From Turnera subulata (Eukaryota > Streptophyta > Magnoliopsida > Malpighiales > Passifloraceae), in contig JAKUCV010003316.1 of assembly GCA_028386065.3 (NCBI GenBank), forward strand, positions 53,135 to 117,134: 64,000 bases of DNA, given 5' to 3'. Below the pieces are notes generated by a model. The model made no database searches and was not told the origin of the DNA. It saw nothing but the letters and a program-made list of their open reading frames with translations. Shown in pieces: positions 29,964-56,126 of the stretch. The translations under genes were made by a program, and so were the position numbers. Positions within the stretch are counted from its first letter, which is position 1, and each line of letters starts with the position of its first letter.

Positions 29964-29981
29964 TATCAGTTACCTCCAGCA

Positions 29982-31344: not shown

Positions 31345-31408
31345 TGTTAGTTCCAGAAAATCTACATCAGGATACCTAATTAATTTTTCAGGGGGAGCTG
31401 TGTCATGG

Positions 31409-31903: not shown

Positions 31904-32360
31904 CATGCAGTCAAGGCTACAAAAGTGTGTTGCATTGTCAACGATAGAAGCTGAGTTTATTGCAGCAACGAAAGCATGCAAGGAGTTGTTGTGGATGAAG
32001 AAGTTTTTAACTGAACTTGGATTCTCGCAAGACAATAATCAATTGTTTTGTGATAGTCAGAGTGCTATCCTTCTTATGAAGAATGCCATTATTCCTGCAG
32101 CCCGCCAATTCATTAACCATAGCCATATTCTAGTTAATGGCCGTATAGTGGATATACCAAGTTATCGCTGCAAACCCCGAGATCTTATTACAGTGAAGGA
32201 TGAACAAAAATCGAAAGATATGATTCAAAATTCACATGATTAGAACTCGAAAAGATCCATATAGAAGAGAATAGATCTGATATGCTGACAAAGACACTTC
32301 CAAGAGAGAAGTTTGAATTTTGCCGAGAAGTTGCAAGGATGGTGGATTCCCCATGTAGTC

Positions 32361-34343: not shown

Positions 34344-35222
34344 TGTTTACACCAAGACCAAAATCGTAAAGGCCCATTTGTTTGGTCCAAAACCAATGTC
34401 CACTACAGGTCCAAGATCAGCGTCATCCGTAGGTCCAGGACCGATGTCATCCGCAGGTCCAAGCCCGATGTCATCCACAGGTCCAAGACCGATGTCATCC
34501 ACAGGTCTAGGACCGATGTTATTCATCGGGCTAGGATGCCTTGGTTCACTCGTCTTTCGTTGGACTAAGCCTGATATCCAATACAGGTTGGGGACGGTAG
34601 ATGGGGATTGGTATCTTTCTAAGTCCGATGTTTTAAGCTGGTCTTCCTTGGGCTTGAATTCGAATTGTGCAAGGATTGGCTTGTGATCAGGAAATTCCAC
34701 AGGTCGCTAGAGCCTGCGCAATCTTCTATGATTCCTTTTCGTATTTGAAAGTTTAAAGGGGAAAGACTCGGGATTAGAGGATATCCTTCGTGTGATGTTT
34801 AGAATTTGAAATAAGGTTTTGATGCGGTTTTGGATTTTATCAATTGTCTAGGGATAGCCTATTTAAGGTTATGGATAACGCTTGTACCGGGATGGCAAAT
34901 TTCTCAATGAAAGAACAATTTTTACCTTTTATTAGTTTATCATTATCATGCTTTCTTAGTTTAGTGTAACTTAGAAAACCCAAAACACAAAACCCGATTT
35001 AGGGCGTTTGACGTTCGTCCGTTCGGCCTTTCATTCAAAGGTCGGATTCGGTTGTCGGTCTGGCCTTTTCATCGGTCGGATCGGCAGGTTAGCATCAAAA
35101 CCCAGTCCAGGACGCGCGACACCGTCCGTTCGGCCTTTCAACGGTCGAATCTGGTCATCGGTTTGGCTCATCAAACAGTCGAATCCGTGAGTTGAGGGTC
35201 GCTCGCTGTTCGTGCGCGAACA
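34344..35222 (+). repeat. 5' LTR of the Tat element (879 bp)
   Basis: TGTTTACACC...GCGAACA. Contains about four copies of a 24-bp repeat (TCATCC.CAGGTCCAAGACCGATG) at 34425-34525 and a TATTTAAG TATA-like site near 34858. Confidence 0.92.
34425..34525 (+). repeat. 24-bp minisatellite inside the LTR
   Basis: Four tandem units of the form TCATCC(A/G)CAGGTCCAAG then (C/A)CCGATG; the same array is at 49118-49218 in the 3' LTR. On the minus strand it reads as repeated DDIGLGPV-like peptide, a by-product of the repeat. Confidence 0.8.
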
Positions 35223-35243
35223 GTTTTTGGCACGCCCGGTGGG
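35223..35243 (+). other. Primer-binding region of the Tat element
   Basis: GTTTTTGGCACGCCCGGTGG directly follows the LTR end. TTGGCACGCCCGGTGGGAC is the form commonly seen after Tat-lineage LTRs. Confidence 0.7.
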
Positions 35244-35281
35244 ACCCACGTTCCACTACAGAAGAAGTCTGAGCATTAACC

Positions 35282-36642
35282 ATGCCCGAGACGAGAAGTC
35301 AGCAGCTCCGAAAGGCTGTAGAGGAGATCGTTCTGGCCAGGAGAGCGATCAATGAGGAACAGAAGCAGCCAGGCTTCACTGGTGCTCTAGCGAGCGCCAA
35401 GCGACGCGAGGTAGGCGATCGACAGGCTCAACTTGAGCAGCTGCATGGAAAAGCCAAGATAGAGACATTGATCAAAGAGGTCAAAGATTCGCTACGCGGC
35501 CAAAGCAAGGCCGAAGTCGTGGCGGAGTTGCCAGCCGGCCAGGGTAAGGCTGTAGCAGATCAGTCAGCCAGCCTGTGTAAGGCTGACGGGAAGAGGAAGG
35601 TCGGTGAGGATAATCCATTCGTCGAGGGAGATCCTGTTGAGGTAGAATATGAAGAAGAAGGGGCAGATGACTCGCATTACAGTTCGCCTTCTCCTACCAA
35701 GATTCTTCATTTTGGGAGGCCTTCAGCACAGCGGGCAGGTACTGCATATGTCCATATGGCAGAGTCCTCTGCCGCACAGCAGGCGTCCAGGTATGAAAGG
35801 CCTATCCTCACGGAGGGCCAGTTAGCTGCAATTGCAACCTCGGTAGAGGAGCAGAACCTTCGACTGGCCAAGAGATGGAGGTACGACTGGCGAACATGAT
35901 GAAAGCCACCATTAGCACATCCATTAGTACAGCCATGCAACAGGTTCATCAGAGGGTGGAGCGACTGGAGTCCTCTGTCATTCAACCACGGGTTACTAAT
36001 CCGCCTGTTCCCCAGCATAATAACAATGTTGTTTTGCCTAACCAGCTTCTTGCAGGGAATCATCCAGGTGGCGTTCTAAGGGCAGAGTGGCGGTTAACCC
36101 AGGAAGGGGCACAAATTGACGCCGAACAGGCCATAGGGGGCGTCCGTGGTGGAGCCCAATTGAATGCCCCAAGGGTTGGCCACCAAGGCCAGCCACATGT
36201 TCCGGTAGAGAACAATCTTTGGGGTTATCAGCCTCAGGGTGTTGGAGGACATCAGCCGCAAGGTGGGGGAGGTACAGACGACCTGAACAATGGCCCCCAA
36301 CAACCGCCGCTCGTCCAGGCTGTTGGCAATAACGGCCCACCTTTTAATGGCGCCAATCAGGGACCCTTCAATCCCAATATGGTTCCCCGGTATGACAATT
36401 ATAACCAGGGGGGCAATGGCGTTTTCAATCAAAATCAGAGAGGGTTTCACTACAACGTTGCCCCCGAAGTAAACCAGGGGGGCAACGGGCCTTTCCATCA
36501 GATGAGAGGCCTCAACCCAGAAGGTTACTTCTATGGAAGGGAGATCCCCGTGGAGCAGCCTTTACCGGTACAGCAACCCCCGCGCATGCACCAGCCTTTG
36601 CCATTCCAACAACTGGTGCATCAGCCAGGGGTCGATCGTTAG
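35282..36642 (+). pseudogene. Tat gag, N-terminal region (frame change near 35870)
   Basis: ATG at 35282 (ACCATGCC context) opens a 205-codon frame rich in K, E and Q that runs out at 35899; the protein carries on in another frame from 35875, so about one base is missing near 35870. The second frame is a Q/N/G/P-rich low-complexity region (QGGNG, QPQGVGGHQPQG) that ends at a TAG at 36640. Low-complexity leaders of this kind precede the gag core in Tat elements. The TAG is followed by CAGCTG and sits in a glutamine-rich run. Confidence 0.8.
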
Positions 36643-38232
36643 CAGCTGGTTGAGGTTTTGCAGCAGCTTGGTATAGAGGTGAGGCCAGGCGCACGCTACA
36701 CCTATGGGCAGCCTTACCCAGAATGGGTCGATCGAGTTCATGTTTTTCCCCAAGGTTTCCGGAAACCTGACTTCAGCCAGTTCTCAGGGGAGGGCCAGGT
36801 TACAACGATGGAGCATATAGCCAAATTTTTTTCGCAGTGCGGCGATATTAATATTAACCCGTTTATGAAGCTGCGTTTGTTTGGTGAGACTCTGACAGGT
36901 GTCGCCTTCCATTGGTACTCCACTCTACCGGCAGGGTCGGTGCAGGCTTGGGAGCAGATGGAGAACTTGTTCCACGAGCAATTCTTCAGGAGTTTGGAGG
37001 AGGTGACCTTGGCAGACTTAGCTCGTGTGGCCCAGCAGTATGGCGAGCCAGTCTTGGAATACGTAGGTCGGTTCCGTGGCTTCCGACTGAAATGTAAGAC
37101 TCAAATCCCTGAGAGAGATGCAGTGCAGATATTGATGAACGGCCTCCAATGGGAATTGAGGAAAAAGGTTATTGGGGCGAGGTTTACTGACGTGGGTCAG
37201 TTTACAGAGGAAGTAAGCAGAATTGAAAAGCTGGCCAATTCAAAGGTCAAAGTTAAACACGCCAAGGCTTCTTACTTCAGAGATTCTAAGGATTTGGCAT
37301 ATGCAGAGATCGATTACCAGGAGGAAGAAAGTGGGGCCTCTGCTGAGGAAAAAGTTTGCTTGGCAGAAATCAAGACTGGCCGACCGTTTCAGTGTCCTGC
37401 CTTGAAGAAGGTGAAGGCGAAGGAAGAGGTCCCCACCAATCGACAACAACAAAGGCCTAATGGGGGGAAATGGAAATCCGATCAACGGCCGTTCGCTTTC
37501 GACATAACGAAGGCCGGTGAGATTTTTGATCAATTGCTTGCTAATGGCCAGATTACTTTGCAGGAGAACCACAAGATACCGACTGAAGCCGAGATAGCAG
37601 GCAAACTGTATTGCAAATGGCATGACAGGTGGAGCCATGATACCAATCACTGCACCACCTTCCGCCGACAGATCCAACAGGCCATAGATTCGGGGCGTTT
37701 GATTTTTCCCATGCAGGTGGATACTGATCCTTTTCCACAACGGTCTGCTTCGGTAAACATGGTAGCCTTTTTACCTCCTAAGCCACCCCTCGGGGCTGGC
37801 TATGCTAAGAAGGCACCTCGTGATTCCCCCAGGCCTCAGTTGGAGGTCGTTGGAGCAGAGAAGGTGAAAGCTATTCAGATGAACTATGAAGTGACCCGCT
37901 GTTCTGAGTGTAGGAGGGTCAACCCAGGAGTACAGTTGCGTTCCGAGGTAGTGGATAATAGGCCCCCATCCAGAATGAAGAGGCCTATCGTTCCCAGAGA
38001 TGATAAGTGGCATATAAACCAGCCAAGAGAACCATTCAGGCATGCACAGCCTAGTTCTCCCCGGGAGCATTTGAGGGATTTGGAGTCACGGTTTGAAAGG
38101 TTTAGACTCACCAAAACCCAAAAAAGGCGGATGCAGAGATTGCGGCACGAGCTGGGTGTCAGCCATCCCATACCCCTGAAGAGAATAGGGGTGGAGAGAA
38201 CACCGATGGAGTCAGGCTCAAAGAAAAATTAG
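36643..38232 (+). CDS. Tat gag core (capsid-like domain)
   Basis: Same frame as the preceding segment after the TAG. It holds the Retrotrans_gag-type block: FSGEGQVTTMEHIAKFF, a FHWYSTLPAGSVQAWEQ stretch and RRSL-type helices (FFRSLEEVTLADLARV), then YCKWHDRWSHDTNHC, a zinc-binding-like Cys/His cluster. Gag packages the RNA into particles in the cytoplasm. The frame ends at TAG 38230, after which the same frame continues into the protease. Over 500 codons without another stop suggests recent activity. Confidence 0.85.
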   Translation, partial: QLVEVLQQLGIEVRPGARYTYGQPYPEWVDRVHVFPQGFRKPDFSQFSGEGQVTTMEHIAKFFSQCGDININPFMKLRLFGETLTGVAFHWYSTLPAGSVQAWEQMENLFHEQFFRSLEEVTLADLARVAQQYGEPVLEYVGRFRGFRLKCKTQIPERDAVQILMNGLQWELRKKVIGARFTDVGQFTEEVSRIEKLANSKVKVKHAKASYFRDSKDLAYAEIDYQEEESGASAEEKVCLAEIKTGRPFQCPALKKVKAKEEVPTNRQQQRPNGGKWKSDQRPFAFDITKAGEIFDQLLANGQITLQENHKIPTEAEIAGKLYCKWHDRWSHDTNHCTTFRRQIQQAIDSGRLIFPMQVDTDPFPQRSASVNMVAFLPPKPPLGAGYAKKAPRDSPRPQLEVVGAEKVKAIQMNYEVTRCSECRRVNPGVQLRSEVVDNRPPSRMKRPIVPRDDKWHINQPREPFRHAQPSSPREHLRDLESRFERFRLTKTQKRRMQRLRHELGVSHPIPLKRIGVERTPMESGSKKN

Positions 38233-39345
38233 GGTTTTGGAAAGTCTGTGGCACAGAGACTTGGTGGTCGGCTTCAGCGACCGGTGAGAGAGAGATTGGG
38301 TGATCGGTCCCGAAGACCGGTCATAGAGAGGTTGGGGCGATATGAAAGCCCGGTGGCCCATTCTTCAAATTCCAAAGCACAGTCGAAGGCCCGAGGACCG
38401 GCAAGGAAGGAGACCAGGCCACAGACCAAGGCTTGGGTTCCTAAGCGAAAACCTGTGAATCTTGTAGAGCTGCTGGAAGAAGACGACTCTTTACTTGAAG
38501 GGTCAGAAGGCGATAATGAAATGCCACAGGCCATACAATTTGGTTCCCTTCCGGAGAAGGCACCAATCAATATGACCTTTGTGTTTCCTTTCTCTTTCAG
38601 TGCAAGGCCTGACCAGCCTTCATCCCTGGAAGGTGATGTGGAGGAAGACCAAGAACCTGTTGCAATGATGTCTTTTCAGAATACGAAGGTCTCTCTTCCC
38701 AGGGGCGAGCAGTTCCCGTGTCCTGCCCAGAATGGAATATATCACTTAAAACCATTGTATATTTCTGTTTCAATGTTTGGCAGGCAGGTTTCAAAGGTGA
38801 TGGTCGATGGAGGGGCAGCTCTTAATATATTGCCATTTTCCGCCTTTAAGAAGATTGGCTGTGAGCAGAAGGACTTGCTTCCTTCGGACTTGACTATGGT
38901 TTCATTTGTTGGGCAGCCGACAAAGGCTGCAGGCGTCTTTGCAGTAGACCTTGAGGTTGGCTCTAAAGCCTCGAAAACGGCTTTCTTTGTTGTCCGAGAG
39001 AAGACGTCGTATAACGGCCTGTTAGGCCGAGACTGGATTCACGCGAATATGGCAGTCCCATCGACCCTTCACCAGATGCTCATTATGTGGAATGAGAAAG
39101 GTGAGACAGAGGTCGTCAAGGGAGACCAATTTCACCCGTCGGTAAGCCAAAATTTTGCCGATGCTTGGTATTTTCAGGAGGGTCTTGGTCCAATCCATTT
39201 TGAAGGGGAGACGTCAGAAGGCAAACCGGCCAGATATTTAATGACAAGGCCGAAGTCTCTTGTGGAGCCTCTTCCCATGTCATCAGCTATGCCAACGCAA
39301 CCTGCCCGTGTTGGCCCAATCATTGAAGAGATTGATGGATTGTGA
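38233..39345 (+). CDS. Tat protease region
   Basis: In the same frame as gag. The aspartic protease motif is MVDGGAALNILP near 38800 (the D-G-G/S-A catalytic loop), followed by LLGRDWIHA near 39020, the usual second block. The N-terminal half is basic and repetitive (RLGG, RPV.ERLG). The frame ends at 39345 with GL and TGA, and pol continues in the next frame, with an 86-bp overlap. Confidence 0.85.
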   Translation, partial: GFGKSVAQRLGGRLQRPVRERLGDRSRRPVIERLGRYESPVAHSSNSKAQSKARGPARKETRPQTKAWVPKRKPVNLVELLEEDDSLLEGSEGDNEMPQAIQFGSLPEKAPINMTFVFPFSFSARPDQPSSLEGDVEEDQEPVAMMSFQNTKVSLPRGEQFPCPAQNGIYHLKPLYISVSMFGRQVSKVMVDGGAALNILPFSAFKKIGCEQKDLLPSDLTMVSFVGQPTKAAGVFAVDLEVGSKASKTAFFVVREKTSYNGLLGRDWIHANMAVPSTLHQMLIMWNEKGETEVVKGDQFHPSVSQNFADAWYFQEGLGPIHFEGETSEGKPARYLMTRPKSLVEPLPMSSAMPTQPARVGPIIEEIDGL

Positions 39346-42300
39346 ATCTGATGTTTGTATGCAGGCTATTTGGCGAGCTGCAGCACTTCTTGCAGTGGAA
39401 GTTGTGAACGCCGAATGCTTACGTGAGGAAGATGAGGAAGAGGGAGTCGGGACCAATGTGGAGGAAGACCTTCCTCCAGCCCCAAGGAAAATGGAGGACG
39501 ATCCTGCTGAAGTACAAGACCCTCTAGAGGAGGTAAACCTGGGCACCAGTGAGGACCAGCGCCCGACCTATGTTAGCGGAATTCTAGAGCCACAGATCAA
39601 AATCCCGCTGATTGAGTTGTTAAGGGAGTACAAAGATTGTTTTGCTTGGGATTACCATGAGATGCCTGGGCTGGATAGGAACCTGGTGGAGCATCGGCTG
39701 CCTACCAAGCTGGGTTTTAAACCATACAAGCAGAGGCCGAGAAGGATGTCACCAGGTGTTGAAGAGGCAGTAAAAATGGAGATTGATTGGTTGCTAAAGG
39801 CCGGTTTTATTAGAACGGCCAGGTATGTGGAATGGCTTTCGAACATTGTTCCTGTTTTGAAAAAGAATGGAAAGCTACGAGTATATGTAGACCTTAGGAA
39901 CTTGAACTTGGCCACACCGAAAGATGAATATCCCATGCTGATGGCGGACATGCTTGTTGATTCGGCAGCTGGCAACGAGCTCTTGAGCTTCATGGATGGT
40001 TATTCTGGGTATAACCAAATCTATATCACTGAGGAAGATGTCCACAAGACCGCCTTTCGCTGCCCTGGTGCGATCGGGACTTATGAGTGGTTGATGATGC
40101 CTTTTGGTCTTATAAATGCAGGTGCCACTTACCAGCGGGCGATGAATCTGATATTCCATGACTTGATCGGCCTTTTCCTCCAGGTCTATATCGACGATAT
40201 CGTGGTAAAGTCAAAGAAGAAGGGAGACCATTTGGGGCATTTGAGGCTGGTTTTTGACAGAATGCGCACCCATGGGTTAAAATTAAACCCCCTCAAGTGT
40301 GCCTTTGGCGTTCGTGCTGGTAATTTTTTGGGATTCCTTGTGCATCAAAGAGGCATCGAAGTGGACAAGAATAGGGCCAGAGCAATTATACAGGCTTGGC
40401 CGCCATCTAACAAGAAGGAGTTGCAACGGTTGCTCGGCCAAGTCAACTTTTTGAGGAGGTTCATCTCTAATCTGGCCGGGCGGACGACTTCTTTTAGTCG
40501 CTTGTTACGTTTAAAAGATGGAGATGAGTTTGTGTGGGGTGATGATGAACAGGCGGCTTTTGATGATTTAAAAAGGTACTTAACTAAGCCGCCAGTACTT
40601 ATGCCTCCGGTCCCTGGTAAGCCGTTGCTTTTGTATATATCGGCTACTGATGTTTCAATTGGGGGGCTGTTGGCACAGGAAAACGCAGACGGCTATGAGC
40701 AGGCCGTTTATTACTTAAGCCGTTCAGTGACTGATGTGGAGCGCAGGTATACTCCCATTGAACGGCTGTGTCTATCTCTATTCCATGCATGTACTAAGCT
40801 TCGATGGTACTTATTGCCAACTATTGTTTATGTTGTTTGTCAAACTGATATAATAAAATACATATTGTCTAGGCCAATCATGCGGAATAGGATTGGCCGG
40901 TGGGTCTTGGCACTTTCTGAGTTTTCACTGAAGTATGTTGCACAGAAGGCCGTTAAAGGACAGGCTTTAGCGGACTTTTTGGCAGACCACCCTACAGAAG
41001 GGCTGGGGTCCTCACCGGTGGGGATAATGCGGGTCGCTGCGGGGGCGTGGCTGTTACATTATGACGGCTCGAAGACAAGAAACGGGGCTGGTGCGGGTAT
41101 CCACATCACATCACCTGACGGTTGGCAGACTCGGATGTCTTTTCTCTTGGACTTCCCCTGTTCCAATAATCAGGCAGAATACGAGGCTCTGATCATTGGG
41201 ATGGAGGTCCTCATCGAGTTGGGGGCATCAGTGGTGGCGGCTAAAGGAGATTCCATGCTAGTCACTGCTCAATTCTCGGGCGAGTACAAATGTGCTAACC
41301 CTGTCTTGGCCAGGTACCGCGAAAGGGTCAGGGAATTAGCCGGCCTATTTTTGGAGTTCGAGTTAACCTTCTGCGTCCGAGACTTGAATGTTGAAGCTAA
41401 TGAGTTGGCGCAGCATGGTTCGGGTTATAGGGAAGCTTGGGAGAACTGCAGTGGGGTGGCCGTGATTAGAAGGAGTTCTCCATCTGTCTCTCTTACTGTA
41501 GAATCATCGATTTCGCTTGCAAATGGCTCAGAAGAGGTCATCGACCATCCAGGCCAGCTTTCCTTGTTTGTTTCAGGTACTAGCTTGGAGGATTGGCGGA
41601 GGGAAATCATCGATTACTTACAGGATCCAAGTTCTCCGGCTGATAAGAAGACAATGAGGAGGGCCGTGGATTACGTTTTGCTCGCCGGAGTGCTCTATAA
41701 GAGGGACCGGTGTGGAGTTTTGCTCAGGTGTCTTGATCCAAAGGAGGCATTCCTTGTCCTCGCCGAAATTCATGAAGGTGTGTGTGGAGCCCATCAGGCT
41801 GGTAGAAAGATGGCGTGGCAGGTTCGTACCCAAGGCTATTTTTGGCCATCTCTCATCAAGGATTGTGAAGACTTTGCAAGTGGGTGTGAGGAGTGTCAGC
41901 GACATGCTCCCATCCGACACATCCCAGTGCAAGAGCTGTCGTCCGTAGTCAAGCCTTGGCCCTTTAGGGGATGGGCTATCGATGCCATCGGGATGATCTA
42001 TCCACCCTCATCCAAGGGCCATCAATATATCTTAGTAGCTACCGACTACTTTACTAAATGGCCTGAGGCAGCAGCTGTGAAGTCTGTTGATCAGGATTCT
42101 GTCATGCAGTTCATCAAGCATCATATTATCCACAGGTTTGGTACTCCAGAGACCATTACGACGGATCAAGCGAAAGCCTTCACAGGGGAGAAGATCGTGC
42201 ATTTTGCAAGAGAGTATGGTTTTCGTTTCCTTCGGTCATCCCCCTATTATGCACAGGCTAATGGTCAGGCGGAGGCGACGAATAAAACCTTGATCTTGAA

Positions 42301-42820
42301 CATTAAGAAAGCAATTGCCGAGTCCAGTCCTAAGGCTTGGCATTTAATTTTGGATGAGGTTTTGTGGGCCCAGAGGACAACTGTGAAGAGTGCAACTGGT
42401 ACATCTCCATTCCGGTTGGTGTACGGTGTTGATGTTGTTTTACCGGACAATATTACAGAGGAGCGTTTGGAGGCCTTGGACCATTTGCTCGCACAGAAAA
42501 AGAAGGTGGAACGAGCTTACAATAAGAAAGTTCGTGTGCAGACCTTTGGAGAGGGAGACCTGGTGTGGAAGGCCATTCTGCCTATTGAAAAGAAATTTGC
42601 TAAGCTTGGGAAATGGTCTCCCACTTGGGAGGGCCCTTTTTGCGTCCATAAGGTGCTGTCAAGAGGGGCTTATCTACTGAGGGATGTCGATGGTCAAGTT
42701 CATGATAGTTCCATCAATGGAAAGTTTCTTAAGAAGTATAGACCGTCACCCTGGCAGGCCATCGATGACAAGGATTATGCCGATTACCGGCGTGACAGAC
42801 GCAACTGGTGGCAAGAATAA
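39260..42820 (+). CDS. Tat pol: reverse transcriptase, RNase H, second RNase H, integrase
   Basis: One open frame of 1186 codons. RT spans about residues 135-320 with NGKLRVYVDLRNLN, MPFGLINAGATYQRAM and the YIDD box near 40190. An RNase H follows (LLLYISATDVSIGGLLAQ, around residues 455-560). A second, archaeal-type RNase H starts at HYDGSKTRNGAGAGI near 41060 with NNQAEYEAL and AKGDS. Integrase has an HHCC finger (HEGVCGAHQAG...CEECQRH) and a core with AIDAIG, TTDQAKAF and GQAEATNK supplying D, D and E. It ends before a tail of about 130 residues. No stops. The true upstream edge is uncertain because of the overlap with the protease frame; a ribosomal frameshift, a short splice or simple decay are all possible. 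Confidence 0.92.
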   Translation: MWSLFPCHQLCQRNLPVLAQSLKRLMDCESDVCMQAIWRAAALLAVEVVNAECLREEDEEEGVGTNVEEDLPPAPRKMEDDPAEVQDPLEEVNLGTSEDQRPTYVSGILEPQIKIPLIELLREYKDCFAWDYHEMPGLDRNLVEHRLPTKLGFKPYKQRPRRMSPGVEEAVKMEIDWLLKAGFIRTARYVEWLSNIVPVLKKNGKLRVYVDLRNLNLATPKDEYPMLMADMLVDSAAGNELLSFMDGYSGYNQIYITEEDVHKTAFRCPGAIGTYEWLMMPFGLINAGATYQRAMNLIFHDLIGLFLQVYIDDIVVKSKKKGDHLGHLRLVFDRMRTHGLKLNPLKCAFGVRAGNFLGFLVHQRGIEVDKNRARAIIQAWPPSNKKELQRLLGQVNFLRRFISNLAGRTTSFSRLLRLKDGDEFVWGDDEQAAFDDLKRYLTKPPVLMPPVPGKPLLLYISATDVSIGGLLAQENADGYEQAVYYLSRSVTDVERRYTPIERLCLSLFHACTKLRWYLLPTIVYVVCQTDIIKYILSRPIMRNRIGRWVLALSEFSLKYVAQKAVKGQALADFLADHPTEGLGSSPVGIMRVAAGAWLLHYDGSKTRNGAGAGIHITSPDGWQTRMSFLLDFPCSNNQAEYEALIIGMEVLIELGASVVAAKGDSMLVTAQFSGEYKCANPVLARYRERVRELAGLFLEFELTFCVRDLNVEANELAQHGSGYREAWENCSGVAVIRRSSPSVSLTVESSISLANGSEEVIDHPGQLSLFVSGTSLEDWRREIIDYLQDPSSPADKKTMRRAVDYVLLAGVLYKRDRCGVLLRCLDPKEAFLVLAEIHEGVCGAHQAGRKMAWQVRTQGYFWPSLIKDCEDFASGCEECQRHAPIRHIPVQELSSVVKPWPFRGWAIDAIGMIYPPSSKGHQYILVATDYFTKWPEAAAVKSVDQDSVMQFIKHHIIHRFGTPETITTDQAKAFTGEKIVHFAREYGFRFLRSSPYYAQANGQAEATNKTLILNIKKAIAESSPKAWHLILDEVLWAQRTTVKSATGTSPFRLVYGVDVVLPDNITEERLEALDHLLAQKKKVERAYNKKVRVQTFGEGDLVWKAILPIEKKFAKLGKWSPTWEGPFCVHKVLSRGAYLLRDVDGQVHDSSINGKFLKKYRPSPWQAIDDKDYADYRRDRRNWWQE

Positions 42821-43784
42821 ATTTATTTTTATATATACTACAAGGGCGATGTAAGTTCGATCATCGTTCATGAGAAATTTATTGTGTGGTGTTACAGGCC
42901 AGTGTTTGGCTGATATTTGATGGAACGATTTGTTCCTTGGCAATAAAATCGTTTTATGCTAGATTCGGCAGGTTTCTTTGAACTTTGTGTTAAGACGTCT
43001 CCTTTGTCTGTCGTGAGGGTAGAGCGATTTTCACACATCGTTCTTGGTTGAAGGAGACTCAATTATTATAGCAAAAGGGGTCTGCCTTTTTGAAAAGAGC
43101 AGTCCATGGGGCCACTAAGGGACCGTGTTATTTGTTGGCCGAGATCTTACTAAGACGATTTAGGTAGAATTCGGAGGTATGAGTTTTCTTATTATTGGCT
43201 GAAACGATCTTTTTGATCGTTTGAGGAAGTAATTATGGGAGGATTTAGCTAATGCGAAGGAGGGATTTGCCGTCTCATAGCTTATTCACGACCGATGACC
43301 TTGAAAGTCCCACAAAGGTATGATTATGTATACATGGAAGCTTAAATTTGTATATACATAACATGAGGAACGACCTTTGTCTTGGATTTTGGAAGAAGTA
43401 TGTGTACTGGAATAGCAACTTCGGGCTGTGAAAATAAGCAATGGAAGAATGATTGCTTTGTAAATCGGGAGTTCACATCGTCCTAAGTCCTGATTTTGAT
43501 AATGGTCGTTCCATGGGTTGAGCTTGGCGTTTGGTTTGTTAAAGGAAGAAACGGTTGTTTTTATTGGTCGGTTTTATAAAGGAAAATTGAATGACAAGAT
43601 CGATATTGGTCATCTATCAAGAGACCGCCCAAAGCGGTCAATCTAAGTATTCAGCCAAAAAAAAAAAGTAAAGACCGTTGTGGTTTATCGGTCGATTATT
43701 CATGAAGTAAAAAGCAATTAAAAGACACTTTGAGGGGGAGGCATAAAGTAGCATAAAATAAGATGGAAAGACCATTATATCGGT
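42821..43784 (+). other. Spacer between pol and the antisense gene; no gene seen
   Basis: Rich in CGATC/GGTCG motifs and AT tracts, with no conserved frame. Transcription of pol and of the antisense gene would converge here, so both 3' untranslated regions and poly(A) sites should lie in it. Confidence 0.6.
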
Positions 43785-46700
43785 TTATTCTAGTTCGTCA
43801 TCCGAAGAAGGGAGTGCGGCCTGAAGCTGGCGAATGCGTCTGTTCACGGCTTTGCGGCGCTTGTCTTCCTCCTCCATGGCTAGTCGTTTTGCCTTCAGTT
43901 GTTCAGTCTCTATTACGAGGGCCTTTATTTTTTCTGCTTTATGGCAGCAGGACGTCAGGAGCTCCTTTTCTTGTTGCTTTTCAGCCAATGTTTCGGTCTG
44001 CAGATCCTTTAGTTTGGAAAGAAGCTCGTGTATCTCTTTCTCTTTCCGCGTCATGGAGGAACGGAGGTTGTTTACGACTTCTACATCAGCCTTCATTTGG
44101 TTTGAAATGACCTCCACGTTTTTGGTGTTAGCTTCGATACGATGATTGACATCTTTTGGGTTGGCCTGTGTGGATGAGTTAAACTTCACTAAGAAGTCGT
44201 GATCGTCCTGCACATGTGAGAAGAAGGAGGATAGACTAGATAAGAGTTCATTGTCGACAATTAGCCCAGCGTTCGTCTTCAGGGTGTTTTGAGCCTCCAT
44301 AGCTCGGTCGACCAGTTCCTGACTCCCTAGGCCAGAGATTCCTTTCTTGGCGAACTCTTTTAGGAAGGATATGGCATTCTTTACTTGGAGGTGTCGATTA
44401 TCCTTTTGTTGAGCAGGGGTGTTGGTATTAATTTGGTCCTTATTTCCAAGCCACGCAAGTAGTTCCTGTGCGAAAATCAAGGAATAAGATGTAGCTCATC
44501 GGCATAATTATAAGAGGGGAAGTTTTGATTACATACCTTTATGGCTTCTAAGGCCTCTGGTTTCTTGCCTGGGTTCGCCCAAGGAGGGAGGGGTCGCGGC
44601 GGCTCTTGAGCCCCCTTGCTATTGTTTGGAGCTTCCTTGGCTTGTGTCGTGCCCTGTTCCCCTCGTAGTGCCTCCATGGAAGTTTGGGTCCTTGTCATTG
44701 CTTTGACAGTATTCAGGGTAGTAACAAGCGTGGTTTGTTTGGACTTTTGCAAGGTATCGGTTGTTCTGGCCCCAGGGGTGGCTTCGGTTGTCGTGTCCTT
44801 GCTGGTTATCTGTGGAGCATTGGCCGGTATCATTGGATTGGCTTTCTGTGGGGCATCGGTCGTCATGTCTTTGTGGGTTGCCTGCGGAGCATCGGCCGGT
44901 GTAGCCGGGTTGGCGTCGGTCATGGTGGCTTTGTGGATTCTATGCAAGGCATGGGTCATTCCTTGGTAGTCATCGTTTTTTCCTGTGTTTGAAGGAGTTG
45001 TTTCCTCTTGATCGGTGGGCATTACAACGATCTCAGTTGTGTTGGTGTTTGGGGGAGTTGTCGCCTCTTGTTCCACGTCATTGGCCTCATTCTCAAGATT
45101 TGGAGACATTGCTATTTCGTGAAACATGGGTTAGGAGTTTTCTAAAAAAAGGGCTTAACTCGTGTTTTGTTCAAGAGAATACCTTGATCCTGTAGCTCAA
45201 CAAGTTCGGCATCAAGCACTTCGACCAACTTCCCTTCCGGAGTTTGTCGCATCAACTTATACTTTTGTGGAGGCGCCACGACCCAGTTGCCTAAGTTTGG
45301 GAGAGGACTTGGTAGCTTGGGAGTTGTGCTCCTTGGTGCTTGCCGGAGTTTTTTCTGTTAAAGGTAAAGTGGAGAGGTCAACTTGTGTTCTGAATTCGTT
45401 TGGAAATACTCGACGTCTTTAATTACCTTGTGTTCTTCCGGCGTTGTCTCTTCCTCGGGCGTCTCATGGCCGGATTTTCGCTTCGGCTTTGCGGTTGTCT
45501 GGTGTGTAGGTTTATCTGCGGCCAGTGATGGTTAGTCACGCAGAATGAAATTAGGAGTGTATGAAATCGGAAGTTTGTGCGAGCTTACCTGGTGGGGTTG
45601 TCAGGTTGATTAAATCAAGGACGTCTCCGAAGGCTACTTCAAAGATGACCGCTGCTTTCTTTTCCCACCAACGTTGTGCCTGTATTGATTTTGAAGGTTT
45701 GATGTCCAGGATTTTTGGGGTTTGGCATTCCCTGATGAGGAGCCGTTGGCAAAGGATAGCTTGGATTCCTGCCGCTCGGTTGGTGACTTTTGAGCGTTTG
45801 TCTGTGGCTTTGTTGAAGGAGAAAAGTAGAGGAACGGGGATATATTGTGTGAAACCCAATTGTTCACTGCAATAGTGGGGATTGTAGGCCTCAAACCCGC
45901 ATCGATTGTTCCGTAGATCGATGTATGTGTGGTACGGTAAGTCTCTGGCCGTTAAGACACTTTGCCATGCAGTTCGACGGAAGGCATGGTGCTTTTCGTC
46001 CAGATCGAACTCGGAGTTGTTCAAGTATTCAGGTCCCCAGGCTAGTGGTTCTTCTACTTCTTCGTTTGAGTCAGATGGCGAATTAATTAGTCGCTTGCAG
46101 ACCAGTTGACGGACTGCGCACATCCTGGAAGGGCTTCGTTGTGCCAGATTATGAAAGAAGACGAGGTGGGTTTGTGTGTCCGGTAAAGCATTCTGGGCTG
46201 TCAATAGCCGAGGGAAGAAGCAGATGGATTCTTTGGGTCCCCGTGGTGACCTGTCGTATTTGAAGACTTCTGGAAAGGTGGCAGTCATCCACAGTTGTAC
46301 TAGCCATATCGGCCCAGAGACGTGAGGCGTGAATTGTCCCTGATCTAGGGAAGTTAGCTCGTGGAGACCCCTGTAAATGGCTGCTAGTACTTGGGGCCCA
46401 AAAGCCAAATGCGGTGTCCCAGAGGCCATTTGAGCCGCGATGGTCTTGAAGAAAGTGGTGACGTATGTGGAGCGAACACAAAAAACGAACTTATTAAGGA
46501 ATAAGTTCATGAACATGAAGTTTTGAAGGTTAGGATCCTTTTCAGTCATGCCATTGGATATGTACGCATCGTAGTATTCTTCTTTGGGAGGATCCTCCAG
46601 GTGTTCGCCTTCGTTGGTTAAATCCAGAGGTTGTCCGTGGGGATGAAGGCCAAATAACACAGCAAGGTCGAAAAGGTTGATTGTAGACATACCAAATTTG

Positions 46701-47185
46701 AAAACAAAGCAATTGATCGACTTATTCCAAAAGCTAGCAACCGCGCACAATGCGGGTCGATTGATCTTGATCTCATCGCTTGTCAGCATGATTAAGTGGT
46801 AGATTCCGGTCTGTCTCCATTTGTCTCCGAAGGTTGGCTCCAGTGTTCTTACCCATTGTTTCCACTTTTTCATATGGGAGGTAGTGGCGAATGGCCACGT
46901 CTTGATTACTTTGTCGTCCCCGGTTGGCCGCATCCATGCACTCATGTTAATGTTATGGCCGATTAGCATGTCTTTTCTATTAAGGGGGCAGACTATGGAG
47001 TGTTGTGGGTGGTCATCGCGAAGAGAAGGACCTAGGGCTATACCGCTTTCCACTGAGAAACAGGGCAAGGAGAAGCCGAGGTTGTTCACGGCTTGTTTGA
47101 AGATGACGATTTTGTCTGTTATTTCACCTTCATAAGATGCAGCTTTGGGGAGAGTTGCGATAGGTAACCTTGGTGCGGCGGCCAT
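43785..47185 (-). CDS. Antisense five-exon gene: plant mobile domain (PMD) protein with coiled-coil tail
   Basis: Exons on the minus strand: 47185-45589, 45515-45427, 45354-45183, 45111-44537, 44465-43785. The four introns are 73, 72, 71 and 71 nt, all GT...AG with good sites (AG|GTAAGC, AAG|GTAATT, AAG|GTATTC, AAG|GTATGT donors). The exons join in frame to 3114 nt, about 1037 residues, with no internal stop. Residues about 145-190 (ALCAVASFWNKS, then FKFGMSTINLFDLAVLFGL) match the plant mobile domain, found in MAIN/MAIL1-type proteins and in transposon proteins. The middle is T/P/A-rich with repeated DAPQ; the last 225 residues are highly charged with heptad-like coiled coil. It sits between pol and the 3' LTR, opposite to pol. 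Antisense extra frames are known in Tat elements; the complete spliced structure here suggests a working gene. Function is unknown. Confidence 0.87.
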
Positions 47186-47448
47186 TGAAGGGTTTGGCGC
47201 GTGTTGTTGGGCTTGTTTTGGAAGGAGGGATCGGTGAGCTTCTTAAATCTTGGTGGTTGTTGTGTCCTCTTAAATAAAGATCGATGGGGTATGGTTCTGG
47301 TGGGTGGCCGTTGTCTTGTGGAGCACGTTTCTTGTAGGAACCTTTGTGTGAAAGGGAAGCTTGAGGTCGATTTTATCTTGGAATCTTGGAGATTGGCTTT
47401 AAGTTTCTTAGGGATAGAGTCGACGTTGGTGGTTTGGCGCCGATCTCC

Positions 47449-47457
47449 TTTTATATA
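47449..47457 (-). promoter_or_regulatory. Probable TATA box of the antisense gene
   Basis: TTATATAAAA on the minus strand, about 265 bp before the ATG at 47185. No open frame in between. Similar TATATAAAAT motifs recur in the repeats further upstream, so the choice of this one is inference. Confidence 0.5.
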
Positions 47458-47589
47458 AGGATTTTTAGTTGAGCGAAGAGGGATTGAATTCGATTTGGAG
47501 GTGGACTCTTGGAGTTTGAAAGGAGAAGTCGGCCGATTGCTTGGGGCGGTTTGTAAGGTCATTTCAGGATGTGGGTCGGTCGATTCTTA

Positions 47590-48345
47590 TCATTCTTCCC
47601 TGTGATATGCATTGCTCGACATGTGGTGTTGGCTACTTAGATCGATCTGTGTCCCAGGTCGGTCATGGGCATATGTCGTTTGGTGTTGATTAATTGGATC
47701 GATTTTATTTTATATAAAATCGGTTGGGATGTCGTTGGGTGTTGGCTACTTCGATCGATCTGTGTCCCCGGTCGGTCATGGGCATATGTCGTTTGGTGTT
47801 GATTAATTGGATCGATTTTATTTTATATAAAATCGGTTGGGCATATGTCGTTGGGTGTTGGCTACTTCGATCGATCTGTGTCCCCTGTCGGTCATGGGCA
47901 TATGTCGTTTGGTGTTGGATTAATTGGATTGATTTTATTTTATATAAAATTGGTTCGGGCTTGGTGTTGATTAATTGGATCGATTTTATTTTATATAAAA
48001 TCGGTTGGGCATATGTCGTTGGGTGTTGGCTACTTAGATCGATCTGTGTCCCGGGTCGGTCATGGGCGTATGACGTTTGGTGTTGGTTAATTGGATCGAT
48101 TTTATTTTATATAAAATCGGATGGGCATATGTCATTTGGTGTTGGCTACTTAGATCGATCTGTGTCCCAGGTCGGTCATGGGCTTATGTCGTTTGGAGTT
48201 GGATAATTGGATTGTTTTTATTATATAAAGTCGGTTCGGGCTTGATTAATTGGATCGATTTTATTTTATTATATAAAATCGGTTCGGGCTTGATTAATTG
48301 GACCGATTTTATTTTATTTAAAATCGGTTCTAGAATGGAAGAATA
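47590..48345 (+). repeat. Tandem repeats with GATCGATCTGTGTCCC and TTTATATAAAATCGG modules
   Basis: Two modules alternate: GATCGATCTGTGTCCC.GGTCGGTCATGGGCATATGTCG (at about 47641, 47755, 47869, 48037, 48151) and TTGATTAATTGGATCGATTTTATTTTATATAAAATCGGTT (about 47687, 47804, 47925, 47967, 48088, 48240, 48292). The second module folds back on itself (CGATTTTA...TAAAATCG). Open frames through it only reflect the repeat. Confidence 0.82.
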
Positions 48346-48727
48346 AGGTCATGGGTCGTTGAGCTTGGTGTTGTTTACTTAGATCGATCTGTGTCTCTGG
48401 TCGGTCGTGGGATCTTCCGGAAGAGGTTTGTGTGCCGTGGTGTGGGTGTTCTTTGTGCTCAGTATGGGGATTGGTAGAGGGCCGATCTGTGGTTATCACG
48501 GAGGTCGATGTGAGGACTGTCAGTTATTTCTTGGATCGATCTGTGAGGCCCGTCAATTATTTCTTGGATCGATCTGTGTCTCGGGCAGATCGACTAGTAG
48601 GGTCGGCCACTTAGTCCTGTGCACGGCCGTGGGTCTGTGTATGACGCAGATCATTCTTAGCGGGTTATTGCAGAGCATAGGCCTTGATCGATGGATGGGT
48701 CTTGCAGGTCGGTCTGTGTCCTATAGG

Positions 48728-48946
48728 TTGACCTTTTGACCCTGTTGACCAATGGGATTGATTTTTGACCCGGTCGACCTTCAAGGTTGACTTTTTGGCC
48801 GGATTGACCGGCAGGTTTGCCTTGTCGCTCGGTTGACCAATACAGTTGACTTTCTTCTCAAGTGACCGACGGGATGACCTTTTTGCTCGATCGTCCGACG
48901 GGGTGTCCAGGGGTTGACTCTTGCCTTGTCATTCGTTTGAGTTGAC
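48728..48946 (+). promoter_or_regulatory. Cluster of ten TTGAC(C/T) motifs (W-box-like)
   Basis: Ten plus-strand TTGAC cores in 219 bp, most as GTTGACC or GTTGACT, e.g. 48728, 48745, 48942. TTGAC(C/T) is the WRKY factor site. The cluster lies about 1.5-1.8 kb upstream of the antisense gene and just before the 3' LTR. It may be a decayed short repeat instead of a chosen regulatory array. Confidence 0.45.
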
Positions 48947-49024
48947 TTCTGGTCATGGTGCTTCGATTTTGGCTGATGGTAAGGATCACCCCTTCGAATT
49001 GTGATAGTCTCCAATCAAAGGGCT

Positions 49025-49036
49025 GAGGGGGGCAAC
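49025..49036 (+). other. Polypurine tract of the Tat element
   Basis: GAGGGGGGCAAC immediately before the 3' LTR start TGTTTACACC. Confidence 0.75.
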
Positions 49037-49915
49037 TGTTTACACCAAGACCAAAATCGTAAAGGCCCATTTGTTTGGTCCAAAACCAATGTCCACTACA
49101 GGTCCAAGATCAGCGTCATCCGTAGGTCCAGGACCGATGTCATCTGCAGGTCCAAGCCCGATGTCATCCACAGGTCCAAGACCGATGTCATCCACAGGTC
49201 TAGGACTGATGTTATTCATCGGGCTAGGATGCCTTGGTTCACTCGTCTTTCATTGGACTAAGCCTGATATCCAATACAGGTTGGGGACGCTAGATGGGGA
49301 TTGGTATCTTTCTAAGTCCGATGTTTTAAGCTGGTCGTCCTTGGGCTTGAATTCGAATTGTGCAAGGATTGGCTTGTGATCAGGAAATTCCACAGGTCGC
49401 TAGAGCCTGCGCAATCTTCTATGATTCCTTTTCGTATTTGAAAGTTTAAAGGGGAAAGACTCGGGATTAGAGGATATCCTTCGTGTGATGTTTAGAATTT
49501 GAAATAAGGTTTTGATGCGGTTTTGGATTTTATCAATTGTCTGGGGATAGCGTATTTAAGGTTATGGATAACGCTTGTACCGGGATGGCAAATTTCTCAA
49601 TGAAAGAACAATTTTTACCTTTTATTAGTTTATCATTATCATGCTTTCTTAGTTTAGTGTAACTTAGAAAACCCAAAACACAAAACCCGATTTAGGGCGT
49701 TTGACGTTCGTCCGTTCGGCCTTTCATTCAAAGGTCGGATTCGGTTGTCGGTCTGGCCTTTTCATCGGTCGGATCGGCAGGTTAGCATCAAAACCCAGTC
49801 CAGGACGCGCAACACCGTCCGTTCGGCCTTTCAACGGTCGAATCTGGTCATTGGTTTGGCTCATCAAACAGTCGAATCGGTGAGTTGAGGGTCGCTCGCT
49901 GTTCGTGCACGAACA
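49037..49915 (+). repeat. 3' LTR of the Tat element (879 bp)
   Basis: Same length as the 5' LTR with roughly 11 substitutions and no indels by eye. Several differences are C/T or G/A changes (e.g. CATCTGCAGG for CATCCGCAGG, GTGCACGAACA for GTGCGCGAACA). Confidence 0.92.
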
Positions 49916-50116
49916 CCCAGCAATGCCCCACGCCTCCATATGGTGGGAATTAGAAAAATGCAATCTTCTTATAATCGAATCTGCCCTCCTATTACTTACT
50001 CTAGGCTCCATTATAACTACAACCTCAGGCTTGAAATCAAAACACAACTCCTCGAAGGTGCGAGCAAATTATTTTTTACCAGCATCCTGACAATTCCAAA
50101 TTAAGATAGCAATCAT
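49916..50116 (-). pseudogene. L1-type LINE ORF2, N-terminal endonuclease (segment 2)
   Basis: ATG at 50116 opens MIAILIWNCQDAGKK, the usual plant L1 ORF2 start (WNC.G.G), followed by an in-frame stop and then FDFKPEVVVIMEPRVS, the endonuclease E-containing block, and SHHMEAWGIAG. It breaks at the CCCAG duplication and continues at 34343. Together the two segments show that the Tat element landed inside the endonuclease. Confidence 0.87.
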
Positions 50117-52399: not shown

Positions 52400-52700
52400 G
52401 CCAGGTACGTCTCGCTTTCTCCCTCATTCTGTTCTCTCTTTCTCCTCTCTCGTTCTCCTCTCTCGTTCTCCTCTCTCCTGCTCTGGCCTCTCCCGATATG
52501 ATCTCACTCTCTCTTCTTCCTCTCGTTCTCTTTTCCAATTATCCTATGCTTGTTCCTGCGTATAACTTCTTCATCTATCTTGTGCCGTCTCTTCTGCTGT
52601 TGTGTAGATTTGTGGGTGTGTCTGGTTATTGTTCTACTATAATTAGGTTTAGTAGTACGAATTGATTATTTATTTCGCTTCCATATGGGTTTTATTGTAG
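52400..52700 (+). other. Pyrimidine-rich leader of the Harbinger element
   Basis: Runs of TCTCC and CTCTCTCG, typical of a plant 5' untranslated region near a promoter; overlapping open frames encode S/L-rich chance peptides. No gene is claimed. Confidence 0.5.
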
Positions 52701-54130
52701 TGGATTGTGGTTTGCGTGCTTCGATTTACCCCAACATGCCCCGATCCCCAAATCAACATGAGCCCTAATTTAGAAATTCACTGTCAAGCATGAAATTAAT
52801 TGAAGTGTTGGGTCTAATATGTGTTTCTTTGCATTCATGTGAGTTAATTTGTGGCTTGCGTGCTTCGTTTTACCCCAACATGCCCCTATCCCCAAATCAA
52901 CATGTACCCTAATTTTGAAATTTACGGTGAAGCATGAAATTGATTGTGGTGTTGGGTCTGATACGTGTTTCTTTGCATTCATATGAGTTAATTTGTGGCT
53001 TGCGTGCTTCGATTTACCCCAAGATGCCCCGATCCCCAAATTAACATGAACCCTAATTTAGAAATTGACTGTCAAGCATGAAATTAATTGAAGTGTTGGG
53101 TCTAATATGTGTTTCTTTGCATTCATGTGAGTTAGTTTGTGGCTTGTGTGCTTCGATTTACCCCAACATGCCCCGATCCCCAAATCAACATGAACCCTAA
53201 TTTAGAAATTTACTGTGAAGCATGAAATTGATTGTGGTGTTGGGTCTGATACGATCTTTGCATTCATGTGAGTTAGTTTGTGGCTTGTGTGCTTCGATTT
53301 ACCCCAACATGCCCCGATCCCCAAATCAACATGAACCCTAATTTAGAAATTTACTGTGAAGCATGAAATTGATTGTGGTGTTGGGTCTGATACGTGTTTC
53401 TTTGCATTCATATGAGTTAATTTGTGGCTTGCATGCTTCGCCGATCCCCAAATAAACATGAACCCTAATTTAGAAATTGACTGTCAAGCATGAAATTAAT
53501 TGAAGTGTTGGGTGTAATATGTGTTTCTTTGCATTCATGTGAGCTAATTTGTGGCTTGCGTGCTTCGATTTACCCCATGATGCCCCGATCCCCAAATCAA
53601 CATGAACCCTAATTTAGAAATTCACTGTCAAGCATGAAATTAATTGAAGTGTTGGGTCTAATATGTGTTTCTTTGCATTCATATGAGTTAACTTATGGCT
53701 TGCATGCTTCGCCGATCCCCAAATGAACATGAACCCTAATTTAGAAATTGACTGTCAAGCATGAAATTAATTGAAGTGTTGGGTGTAATATGTGTTTCTT
53801 TGCATTCATGTGAGTTAATTTGTGGCTTGCGTGCTTCGATTTACCCCAAGATGCCCCGATCCCCAAATCAACATGAACCCTAATTTAGAAATTCACTGTC
53901 AAGCATGAAATTAATTGAAGTGTTGGGTCTAATATGTGTTTCTTTGCATTCATGTGAGTTAATTTGTGGCTTGTGTGCTTCGATTTACCCCAACATGCCC
54001 CAATCCCCCAATCAACATGAACCCTAATTTAGAAATTTATTGTGAAGCATGAAATTGATTGTGGTGTTGGGTCTGATACGTGTTGCTTTGCATTCATATG
54101 AGTTAATTTGTGGCTTGCGTGCTTCGATTG
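52700..54130 (+). repeat. Tandem repeat, about ten units of roughly 130-146 bp
   Basis: Unit landmarks: TTTGTGGCTTGCGTGCTTCG, TTTACCCCAACATGCCCCGA, AACATGAACCCTAATTTAGA, then AAGCATGAAATTAATTG and GTGTTGGGTCTAATATGTG. Copies recur at about 52709, 52850, 52996, 53138, 53280, 53424, 53553, 53693, 53822, 53966 and 54110. Some lack the ATTTACCCCAACATGCC part. Two sub-types (AATTAATTGAAG and AATTGATTGTGG) alternate. Confidence 0.88.
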
Positions 54131-54367
54131 GTGTAGTTGTAGTGAATTTCCAGTGTAGTTGAGCGTGATATGTTTATGTGTGGTAGATTGTTGGGAGTGC
54201 GTTTGTAATGTACTTATGTGCAACCTCACTCTAAACGGGCAACGTATATAGGCTGGAAACCGGATGTTGTGGCCTACTGGTCCAAAATGAGCCTAAGCTG
54301 ATGTACCACTAGGGAGACAAAGCCATATACGTGCCAATATTAGGGTGTGGTTGCCGCATCAGTCGTT

Positions 54368-54739
54368 CATTGAGCCTAAAATTCTGCTCTTTGTGTAAAC
54401 AGAACTGCTTTGAAAAAGGAAGTGAGTGCGAGGCATTGTGAAGAAAAGCTGAAATCAAGTTATATTGGGAAGTTAACAGAGGTATGTCTATCTATGACTT
54501 CTGTGAAATGATGTTGGTACATGTGTGTTCAGTTGACATATGGTGCTTATTTACATTGAGCCTAAAATTCTGCTCTTTGTGTAAACAGAACTGCTTTGAA
54601 AAAGGAAGTGAGTGCGAGGCATTGTGAAGAAAAGCTGAAATCAAGTTATATTGGGAAGTTAACAGAGGTATGTCTATCTATGACTTCTGTGAAATGATGT
54701 TGGTACATGTGTGTTCAGTTGACATATGGTGCTTATTTA
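54368..54739 (+). repeat. Exact 186-bp tandem duplication before the transposase
   Basis: 54368-54553 and 54554-54739 appear identical by eye (CATTGAGCCTAAAATTCTGC ... GGTGCTTATTTA). Each copy contains TTAACAGAGGTATGTC, a possible splice donor, so it may duplicate a leader exon. Confidence 0.85.
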
Positions 54740-54827
54740 TGTTTTTTGCTTTTTGTCCATGCTGTTCTGTATGGTGCATGCTGTAGTGTGTGTTTTCTCC
54801 TCCTCCTCTGCTTGTTATAGACTGAAT

Positions 54828-56126
54828 ATGAATCGTCGCGAACGTTCGATTATTGCTGCTGTGTTAGTGATTTGGTGGACCAACCTGCAATTGTTGTTGA
54901 GTTCTGCTGCATTTCTAGTTGCATACATACATAATGTGGGTTCAACGAATGAGAATAGGAGAGCTTTGAGGAATAGGACTTTTACAAGTTACGCAAGTAG
55001 ACGGGAAGTCATAGACTCATTGTGTAAGGCGTCTGACACCGACACTATAGACAACCTTAGGATGGACATGAATGCATTTGATAAGTTGTGTGAGCTACTT
55101 AGAGTTAAGGGTGGTCTTAAATCGAATGGTGCAGTAGAGGTAGAGGAGCAGGTTGTCATTTTCACACATATCCTTGCACACCACGAGAAAAATAGGGTAA
55201 TGCAGACTAGGTTCAGCAGATCAAGAGAGACAATAAGTAGGCATTTCCATGCAGTTTTGAAGGCTGTCATTATGGTGCAGAATGAGTTGTTAGTGAAACC
55301 AGAACCTGTTCCTGAGGATTGCAGTGATCATAGGTGGAAATGGTTCAAAGGGTGCTTAGGTGCATTAGATGGTTGCTACATAGATGTAACTGTTCCTGAT
55401 GCACAGAAGTCTAGGTATCGAAGTAGGAAGGGTCATATAGCAACTAATGTGCTAGGGGTATGTAACCGAGACATGAATTTCATTTATGTCTTTCCTGGAT
55501 GGGAGGGATCTGCAACTGATGCAAGGATCTTGCGTGACGTGGTTGGGAGAAGGAATGGACTACAAGTCCCTCAGGGTAGGTTTTTAATCATAGCATAGAA
55601 CATAAAATTGGCACATGTTAAAGTGATAGTTTAATTAATAGAGCATGTGATGATGTTTTAGGTAACTATTATTTGGTTGATGCTGGATATACCCATGGTC
55701 CTGGGTTTTTGGCCCCTTATAGGGGTGTGCGGTACCACTTGAGGGAGTGGGTGACAAGTGGTATCAGAATGCCGAGGAACCGCGAAGAGTTCTTCAATAT
55801 GAAGCATGCTATGGCAAGAAATGTCATCGAACGTGCTTTTGGGTTGCTTTTGGGCAATTCTTAGAAGCCCATGTTTTTACCCAATTGTAACTCAAGGTAG
55901 GATCATCATGGCATGTTGCTTGCTGCATAACTTCATTAGGGCCACCATGGCAGTTGATCCGGAAGAAAACACTCCAACTGATGACCCCGCCGCGGATGAA
56001 GATGATACAGAAGAGCCCCCTCAGTATGTTGAGGCCGTTTCTACAACTCCAGGGTGGAATGCAGAGGGTGATGACTTAGCGCAGCAGATGTATGATGATT
56101 GGAGAGCAAGTCATGCATGTAATTAG
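54828..56126 (+). pseudogene. PIF/Harbinger transposase (DDE), frameshifted
   Basis: Exon 1 starts at the ATG of MNRRERSI (54828; an upstream ATG in frame at 54738 is possible) and ends at 55575; an 86-nt GT...AG intron follows, and exon 2 begins at 55662, phase kept. Motifs: FSRSRETISRHFHAVLKAV (helix-turn-helix), GALDGCYIDV (first D), YYLVDAGYTHG (second D), RNVIERAFGLL (E). Just after the E block, near 55850, the frame shifts; the C-terminal part (WAILRSPCFYP and CCLLHNFIRATM) runs in the next frame to 56126. The catalytic triad is in the first frame but the last helix region is not, so it is probably inactive. The enzyme would cut and paste the element. Confidence 0.9.

Follow-up and report, generated by a model that had tools for sequence, protein, structure and literature searches.

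Intron retention and purifying selection in a five-exon antisense plant mobile domain gene of a Tat retrotransposon, probably Ogre-like, of Turnera subulata

An LTR retrotransposon of the Tat lineage of Ty3/gypsy in the genome of Turnera subulata houses an antisense gene that encodes a plant mobile domain (PMD), is divided into five exons by four introns, keeps these introns from copy to copy and is under purifying selection comparable with that on pol. The gene lies on the minus strand at 47185-43785, between pol and the 3' long terminal repeat (LTR), in a stretch of 64,000 nucleotides of contig JAKUCV010003316.1, hereafter the window (Table 1). Antisense frames of Tat elements have long been listed together with the question whether they are functional, and the example described here has the structure of a gene with several introns.

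The first-pass annotation of the window had described a single stop-free frame of 3114 nt antisense to pol, made up of five exons that are separated by four GT-AG introns, each 71-73 nt long. This structure was reproduced: the joined exons, 3114 nt with the stop codon, encode 1037 residues and contain no internal stop. The intron lengths modulo three are 1, 0, 2 and 2, so that unspliced read-through loses the frame. The GC content of introns 2-4 (0.35-0.38) is below that of every exon (0.46-0.54), and that of intron 1 is 0.47. No sense frame of at least 120 codons in the frame list of the window overlaps the gene. A perfect TATA box upstream of the ATG was found in 0 of 17 other copies examined, and its position in 12 other aligned rows is occupied by interrupted or altered stretches; because it is present in the window copy alone, it is ruled out as a conserved promoter.

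Table 1. Features of the retrotransposon and its antisense gene in window coordinates
Feature	Position	Strand	Details
Target site duplication, left	34339-34343		CCCAG, identical to right copy
5' LTR	34344-35222	+	879 bp, TGTT..AACA
gag frame	36643-38232	+	PF03732, E 8.2e-13
Protease frame	38233-39345	+	in the frame of gag, one stop codon between; PF13975, E 5.8e-4, under curated cut-off
pol frame	39245-42820	+	reverse transcriptase, RNase H, RVT_3 (second RNase H), integrase
Exon 5	43785-44465	-	681 nt including stop; charged, coiled-coil-like C-terminus
Intron 4	44466-44536	-	71 nt, GT..AG
Exon 4	44537-45111	-	575 nt, fast-evolving linker
72-nt internal repeat of exon 4	44780-44914		
Intron 3	45112-45182	-	71 nt, GT..AG
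Exon 3	45183-45354	-	172 nt
Intron 2	45355-45426	-	72 nt, GT..AG
Exon 2	45427-45515	-	89 nt, contains basic KPKRK
Intron 1	45516-45588	-	73 nt, GT..AG
Exon 1	45589-47185	-	1597 nt, begins with ATG
Plant mobile domain	45791-46807	-	residues 127-465, PF10536
TATA-like box TATATAAAAGG	47447-47457	-	272 nt upstream of ATG, window copy only
Tandem-repeat region	47625-48330		between gene start and 3' LTR
3' LTR	49037-49915	+	purine-rich tract immediately upstream
Target site duplication, right	49916-49920		5 nt

The window copy of the retrotransposon spans 34344-49915 and is 15,572 bp (15.6 kb) long. Its LTRs have TG..CA ends and are 98.75% identical, and their difference at only 11 of 879 sites, together with CCCAG on both flanks, bears out the earlier description of the element as young. 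If 7e-9 or 1.3e-8 substitutions are assumed per site and year, the LTR divergence corresponds to an insertion about 0.5-0.9 million years ago. Pol matches the Pfam families RVT_1 (1.4e-28), RT_RNaseH (3.5e-19, residues 456-559), RVT_3 (7.4e-13, residues 605-723) and rve (3e-12), with parts of the integrase at residues 831-1001. This order upholds the assignment to Tat in the first-pass annotation: in Ogre and Retand elements the additional RNase H domain follows the first one and precedes the integrase (PMC6317226), as it does in the window copy. A spacing of about 270 bp between the protease and reverse transcriptase frames was applied as one Ogre criterion; in the window copy the two frames overlap when read from stop to stop with splicing ignored. 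An extra frame with a PMD, a trait typical of Ogre elements though not defining by itself, is present.

Compared with 17 related copies, 84 nt are deleted in frame from the window pol near 42446, in the C-terminal part of the integrase; undeleted copies exist. A lost sense intron was ruled out as the origin of this gap, because the relatives have coding sequence, in frame, in the facing stretch. At 35273-36642, downstream of the 5' LTR and upstream of gag, there are two sense frames without a Pfam match; they may correspond to the leader frame reported for Ogre elements. Just before the element, at 29964-32243, there are broken polyprotein frames, the first of which (29964-30449) matches RVT_2, the Copia-type reverse transcriptase. 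Elsewhere in the window, a satellite-like array of 144/127-nt units occupies 52597-54155, and a perfect 186-nt tandem duplication at 54368-54739 adjoins a DDE_Tnp_4 frame at 54723-55598, which we take to be Harbinger-like.

The PMD of the antisense gene lies within exon 1. PF10536 matches this exon over profile positions 1-302 of 347 with an E-value of 2.2e-27 and 96.6 bits against a curated cut-off of 34.9, in agreement with the similarity to PMD proposed earlier. The basic KPKRK patch of exon 2, which we take to be nuclear-signal-like, is found in 18 of 19 aligned rows and in the more distant relative L030. For exons 3 and 4 there is no Pfam match with an E-value up to 1, and the Pfam matches of exon 5 are all under their cut-offs, as is, by far, a weak match of this exon to an NCBIfam SMC model (E 0.019). 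The TRP28 domain (PF04195) was not detected by a Pfam search of exons 1, 3, 4 and 5 at E-values up to 1. When the exon-1 protein was compared with a protein database, 0 of 5497 candidates reached E<=0.001, so the comparison of relatives covers the source genome. A sequence search of the PDB gave no match, and a single-sequence structure prediction had a pLDDT of 32, which made it unusable.

The exon-1 protein matches at least 88 places in the 518.7-Mb genome, and the PMD family model matches at least 117. Of the exon-1 matches, 24 places were examined, namely 20 loci (L009-L028) and L029-L032, some of which span several matches; older fragments are mostly outside this set, and every relative is from this single genome. 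Beyond the 3' end of the gene, pol is found on the opposite strand in 18 of the 20 loci, and LTR sequence is on the other side of the gene in 19 of 20, in L020 as no more than two short pieces. L021 gives a half-length match and L027 is too diverged for DNA alignment, and the remaining 18 copies, 12 close and 6 older, were aligned with the window to give 19 rows.

All four introns are present in every one of the 18 aligned copies. The letters of the splice dinucleotides are kept at 287 of 288 positions, the sole exception being in L023, an old copy, whereas 4054 of 4833 letters of the intron bodies are identical to the window (Fisher 4e-20, with cells that are not independent). Among the 12 close copies, 11 of 14 net length changes in exons are divisible by three, against 1 of 26 in introns (Fisher 1.7e-6). 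In the 6 older copies the corresponding numbers are 6 of 20 and 2 of 17, which is not significant (p 0.25), and such a weak in-frame bias is expected once copies are dead. Likewise, the spliced frame is unbroken in 4 of the 19 rows (the window, L011, L013 and L019), as expected for copies that are mostly dead; the frame of L009 ends 12 codons early. The spliced exon 4/5 junction was not found within 3 mismatches in the 518.7-Mb genome by a scan that covered this one of the four junctions, skipped very common words and had no positive control on the same genome; the probe would have matched 18 of the 19 aligned rows, had these been spliced. The presence of all four introns in 18 of 18 copies and the absence of this junction support the earlier proposal that the introns persist through retrotransposition. 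This evolution of the copies suggests that the antisense gene is spliced.

Selection was estimated from pairwise dN/dS values (NG86 with Jukes-Cantor correction, without ancestral reconstruction), the pairs not being independent. For the PMD, the 45 pairs within group A give a dN/dS of 0.121, the 3 pairs within group B one of 0.124 and the 30 pairs between A and B one of 0.084; against three older sets it is 0.115, 0.125 and 0.141. These values are far below 1, as the claim of a selected gene had implied, and the purifying selection is comparable with that on pol (0.08-0.14 for the PMD against 0.06-0.18). In these elements, dN/dS at the end of pol is 0.120-0.179; against L027 it is 0.064, but with a dS of 1.77, near saturation. 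This pol control includes L027 and leaves out L010, L021 and L022. Exon 5 shows 0.17-0.29 and the whole spliced frame 0.18-0.25, while exon 4 is weakly constrained (0.46-0.64). Bootstrapping excludes a dN/dS of 1 in 9 of 9 pairs for exon 1 and in 8 of 9 for exon 5, the exception being the close pair L011/L016, in which exon 5 gives 1.02 with an open upper limit. Variable sites at codon positions 1, 2 and 3 amount to 15.0, 8.8 and 39.3% in exon 1 (13 rows) and to 24.6, 31.2 and 33.3% in exon 4, which shows little bias; 28-46% of intron sites are variable. Thus, the PMD part is constrained about as strongly as pol and the linker much less.

Divergence of L018, L019 and L020 from the other close copies is high in exons 1-3; beyond about gene position 2200, and in pol, it falls toward the level seen within groups. 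The close elements look like mosaics, as would arise from template switching.

The gene structure can be followed in part into deeper relatives. In L030, which shares 56% identity across part of exon 1, counterparts of the boundaries of all four introns are readable by eye. In L027, which is about 50% identical, some intron boundaries are readable and exon 2 is absent. A deeper group of about 30% identity (L029, L031 and L032) also has PMD genes, and that of L031 is opposite to a reverse transcriptase. L032 has a phase-1 donor at the place matching intron 1 without a clean acceptor, so that the position of intron 1 in the deep clade is only suggestive. On the minus strand of L032, PMD frames and then a separate coiled-coil-like frame are seen at 1804-2502 and 3634-5262, with GT/AG candidates between them. 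A frame of 2224 codons at C1425 was rejected as artefactual, being produced by a stretch of N (L029 contains 2932). TRP28 has 82 matches in the same genome, for example at L033-L036, so that this genome may hold Tat antisense genes of both kinds; within 1.8-3.2 kb per locus, L033-L036 show no match to the window pol, exon 1 or exon 5.

A PMD tree (FastTree, 200 columns, 15 rows) places the window family, the deeper group and the PMD genes L001-L003 on separate branches. L001-L003 form a branch of their own with a support of 1.0 and lie outside any element of the window family; they are probably PMD-C. The three best-scoring other PMD genes of the genome have frames of 740-1059 codons that continue unbroken past the PMD, and the identity between the element PMD and host PMD genes is about 23-30% over the matched parts. 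The PMD had been assigned to the MAIN/MAIL1 type, but it belongs instead to an element-borne group apart from those three genes. This placement agrees with the PMD-A clades of Ikeda et al. 2017, in which PMD-A1/A2 are described as Gypsy-only and PMD-C as mostly genic (PMC5418596).

The best explanation of these results is probably an antisense-transcribed, spliced accessory gene of an Ogre-like Tat element, the protein of which is needed as pol is and may regulate the element's expression or its nuclear entry and integration. The antisense strand would be transcribed, its five exons spliced and the mRNA translated into a probably nuclear protein of about 1040 residues, consisting of the PMD, the basic patch, a variable linker and a coiled-coil-like C-terminus. 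The element would need this protein in the way it needs pol, so that selection would preserve the frame and splice sites from copy to copy. In retrotransposition, reverse transcription copies RNA of the sense strand. The introns read CT..AC there and would not be removed, which presumably accounts for their survival. The likeliest role of the protein may be regulation of the element's own expression or of the entry of the element into nuclear chromatin and its integration there. A nuclear site of action is indirectly indicated by the KPKRK patch, by the precedent of gene23 of the maize element Grande and by host PMD proteins, which are at least partly nuclear (PMC8616336).

Blunting of the host's PMD-dependent silencing would be one specific form of this role. 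The protein would then compete with or poison the host MAIN/MAIL1-PP7L complex and so free the element from silencing. Because this reading is contained in the best explanation, the odds of the two overlap; we regard it as possible but on balance doubtful. It is in keeping with the requirement of the PMD proteins MAIN and MAIL1 for silencing of transposable elements and their binding to PP7L (PMC7156037; PMC8616336), and with the strong constraint on the window PMD. However, the element PMD, at about 23-30% identity, is far from the host genes and on its own branch, and strong, even constraint looks less like the product of an arms race than like that of a constant function in replication. If the antisense RNA rather than the protein were the working product, duplexes with the genomic RNA might tune silencing or copy number; an antisense transcript over the sense transcript could give double-stranded RNA, a possibility raised in PMC7264820. 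Neither the codon-position bias of exon 1 nor the in-frame length changes and a PMD dN/dS near 0.1 are predicted by an RNA product, to which we give a slight chance.

The likeness of the gene to an ordinary intron-bearing host gene could also reflect recent capture of such a gene with its introns, inserted in antisense orientation as a passenger. Against this stand the opposite and downstream position of pol in 18 of 20 loci, including L027 at only about 50% identity, the selection acting between copies, and the separate clustering of the three best-scoring other PMD genes with their unbroken frames. The PMD tree disfavours recent capture of a MAIN-like gene in particular, and the chance of any such recent event is very slight; ancient capture of a host gene is possible. 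Short introns can often be picked by eye in any sequence, and GT-AG introns might have been chosen to bridge stops in a chance open frame. Yet splice letters, frame and codon pattern are conserved over 18 copies and PF10536 matches at 2.2e-27, so that the comparison of copies refutes this reading; a chance frame appears very unlikely, with next to no probability left to it.

The antisense gene suggests a way for introns to live in a retrotransposon, and a protein and splice sites held as firmly as pol argue that the gene is needed for the spread of the element. Surveys of uninterrupted frames catch such genes only partly, exon 1 encoding about half of the protein. A defined protein is now at hand for testing the proposed silencing link between element and host PMDs. 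RNA-based silencing favours intronless transcripts. A more speculative and rather unlikely extension is that antisense housing lets the lineage keep a multi-intron gene whose spliced mRNA would escape RNA silencing, that its PMD protein would engage the host PMD-phosphatase complex, and that the host MAIN/MAIL silencing genes would derive from such a counter-silencing gene of an element or have a common origin with it.

Steinbauerova et al. 2011 reportedly described extra frames with a PMD in Gypsy elements. PMDs occur in Gypsy and Ogre elements (PMC9289625) and were found in 57% of Ogre elements by Neumann et al. 2019 (PMC6317226). The window gene has in common with these frames the domain, the superfamily lineage and a place outside the polyprotein, but it is split into five exons, runs antisense, has conserved splice sites and is under selection as strong as that on pol. 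The strand of the PMD frames is unstated in the available text of both reports (PMC6317226; PMC9289625). In the 2019 survey, getorf was used to predict frames without interruption and with a minimum length of 250 codons (PMC6317226). Ikeda et al. applied Fgenesh to the surroundings of element PMDs, so that their data may contain spliced models (PMC5418596). Element PMDs, antisense Tat frames and the idea of a counter-silencing role for element PMDs, already suggested in PMC8616336, are known. No multi-intron antisense gene selected like pol was found among the titles and abstracts listed in the literature search, and such a gene appears to be new relative to the literature searched.

Antisense frames are the rule in recently active Retand elements (PMC11963269). 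Their TRP28 (PF04195) genes are likewise antisense and sit downstream of pol, ahead of the 3' LTR, in a region that often has tandem repeats, and Smc-like domains are given for some clusters (PMC11963269); the window gene bears a PMD, and its scanned exons show no TRP28 match. TRP28 is missing from 2 of 63 Retand clusters, so that it is not an exclusive criterion, and the word intron is absent from the main text of that paper (PMC11963269). Grande gene23 of maize is also an antisense accessory gene, transcribed from its own promoter and giving a nuclear product (PMC7264820); its expression has been demonstrated, whereas that of the window gene is predicted from sequence. Host MAIN and MAIL1 share the PMD with the window gene (PMC7156037; PMC5418596), but the host PMD genes of the Turnera genome stand on a separate branch.
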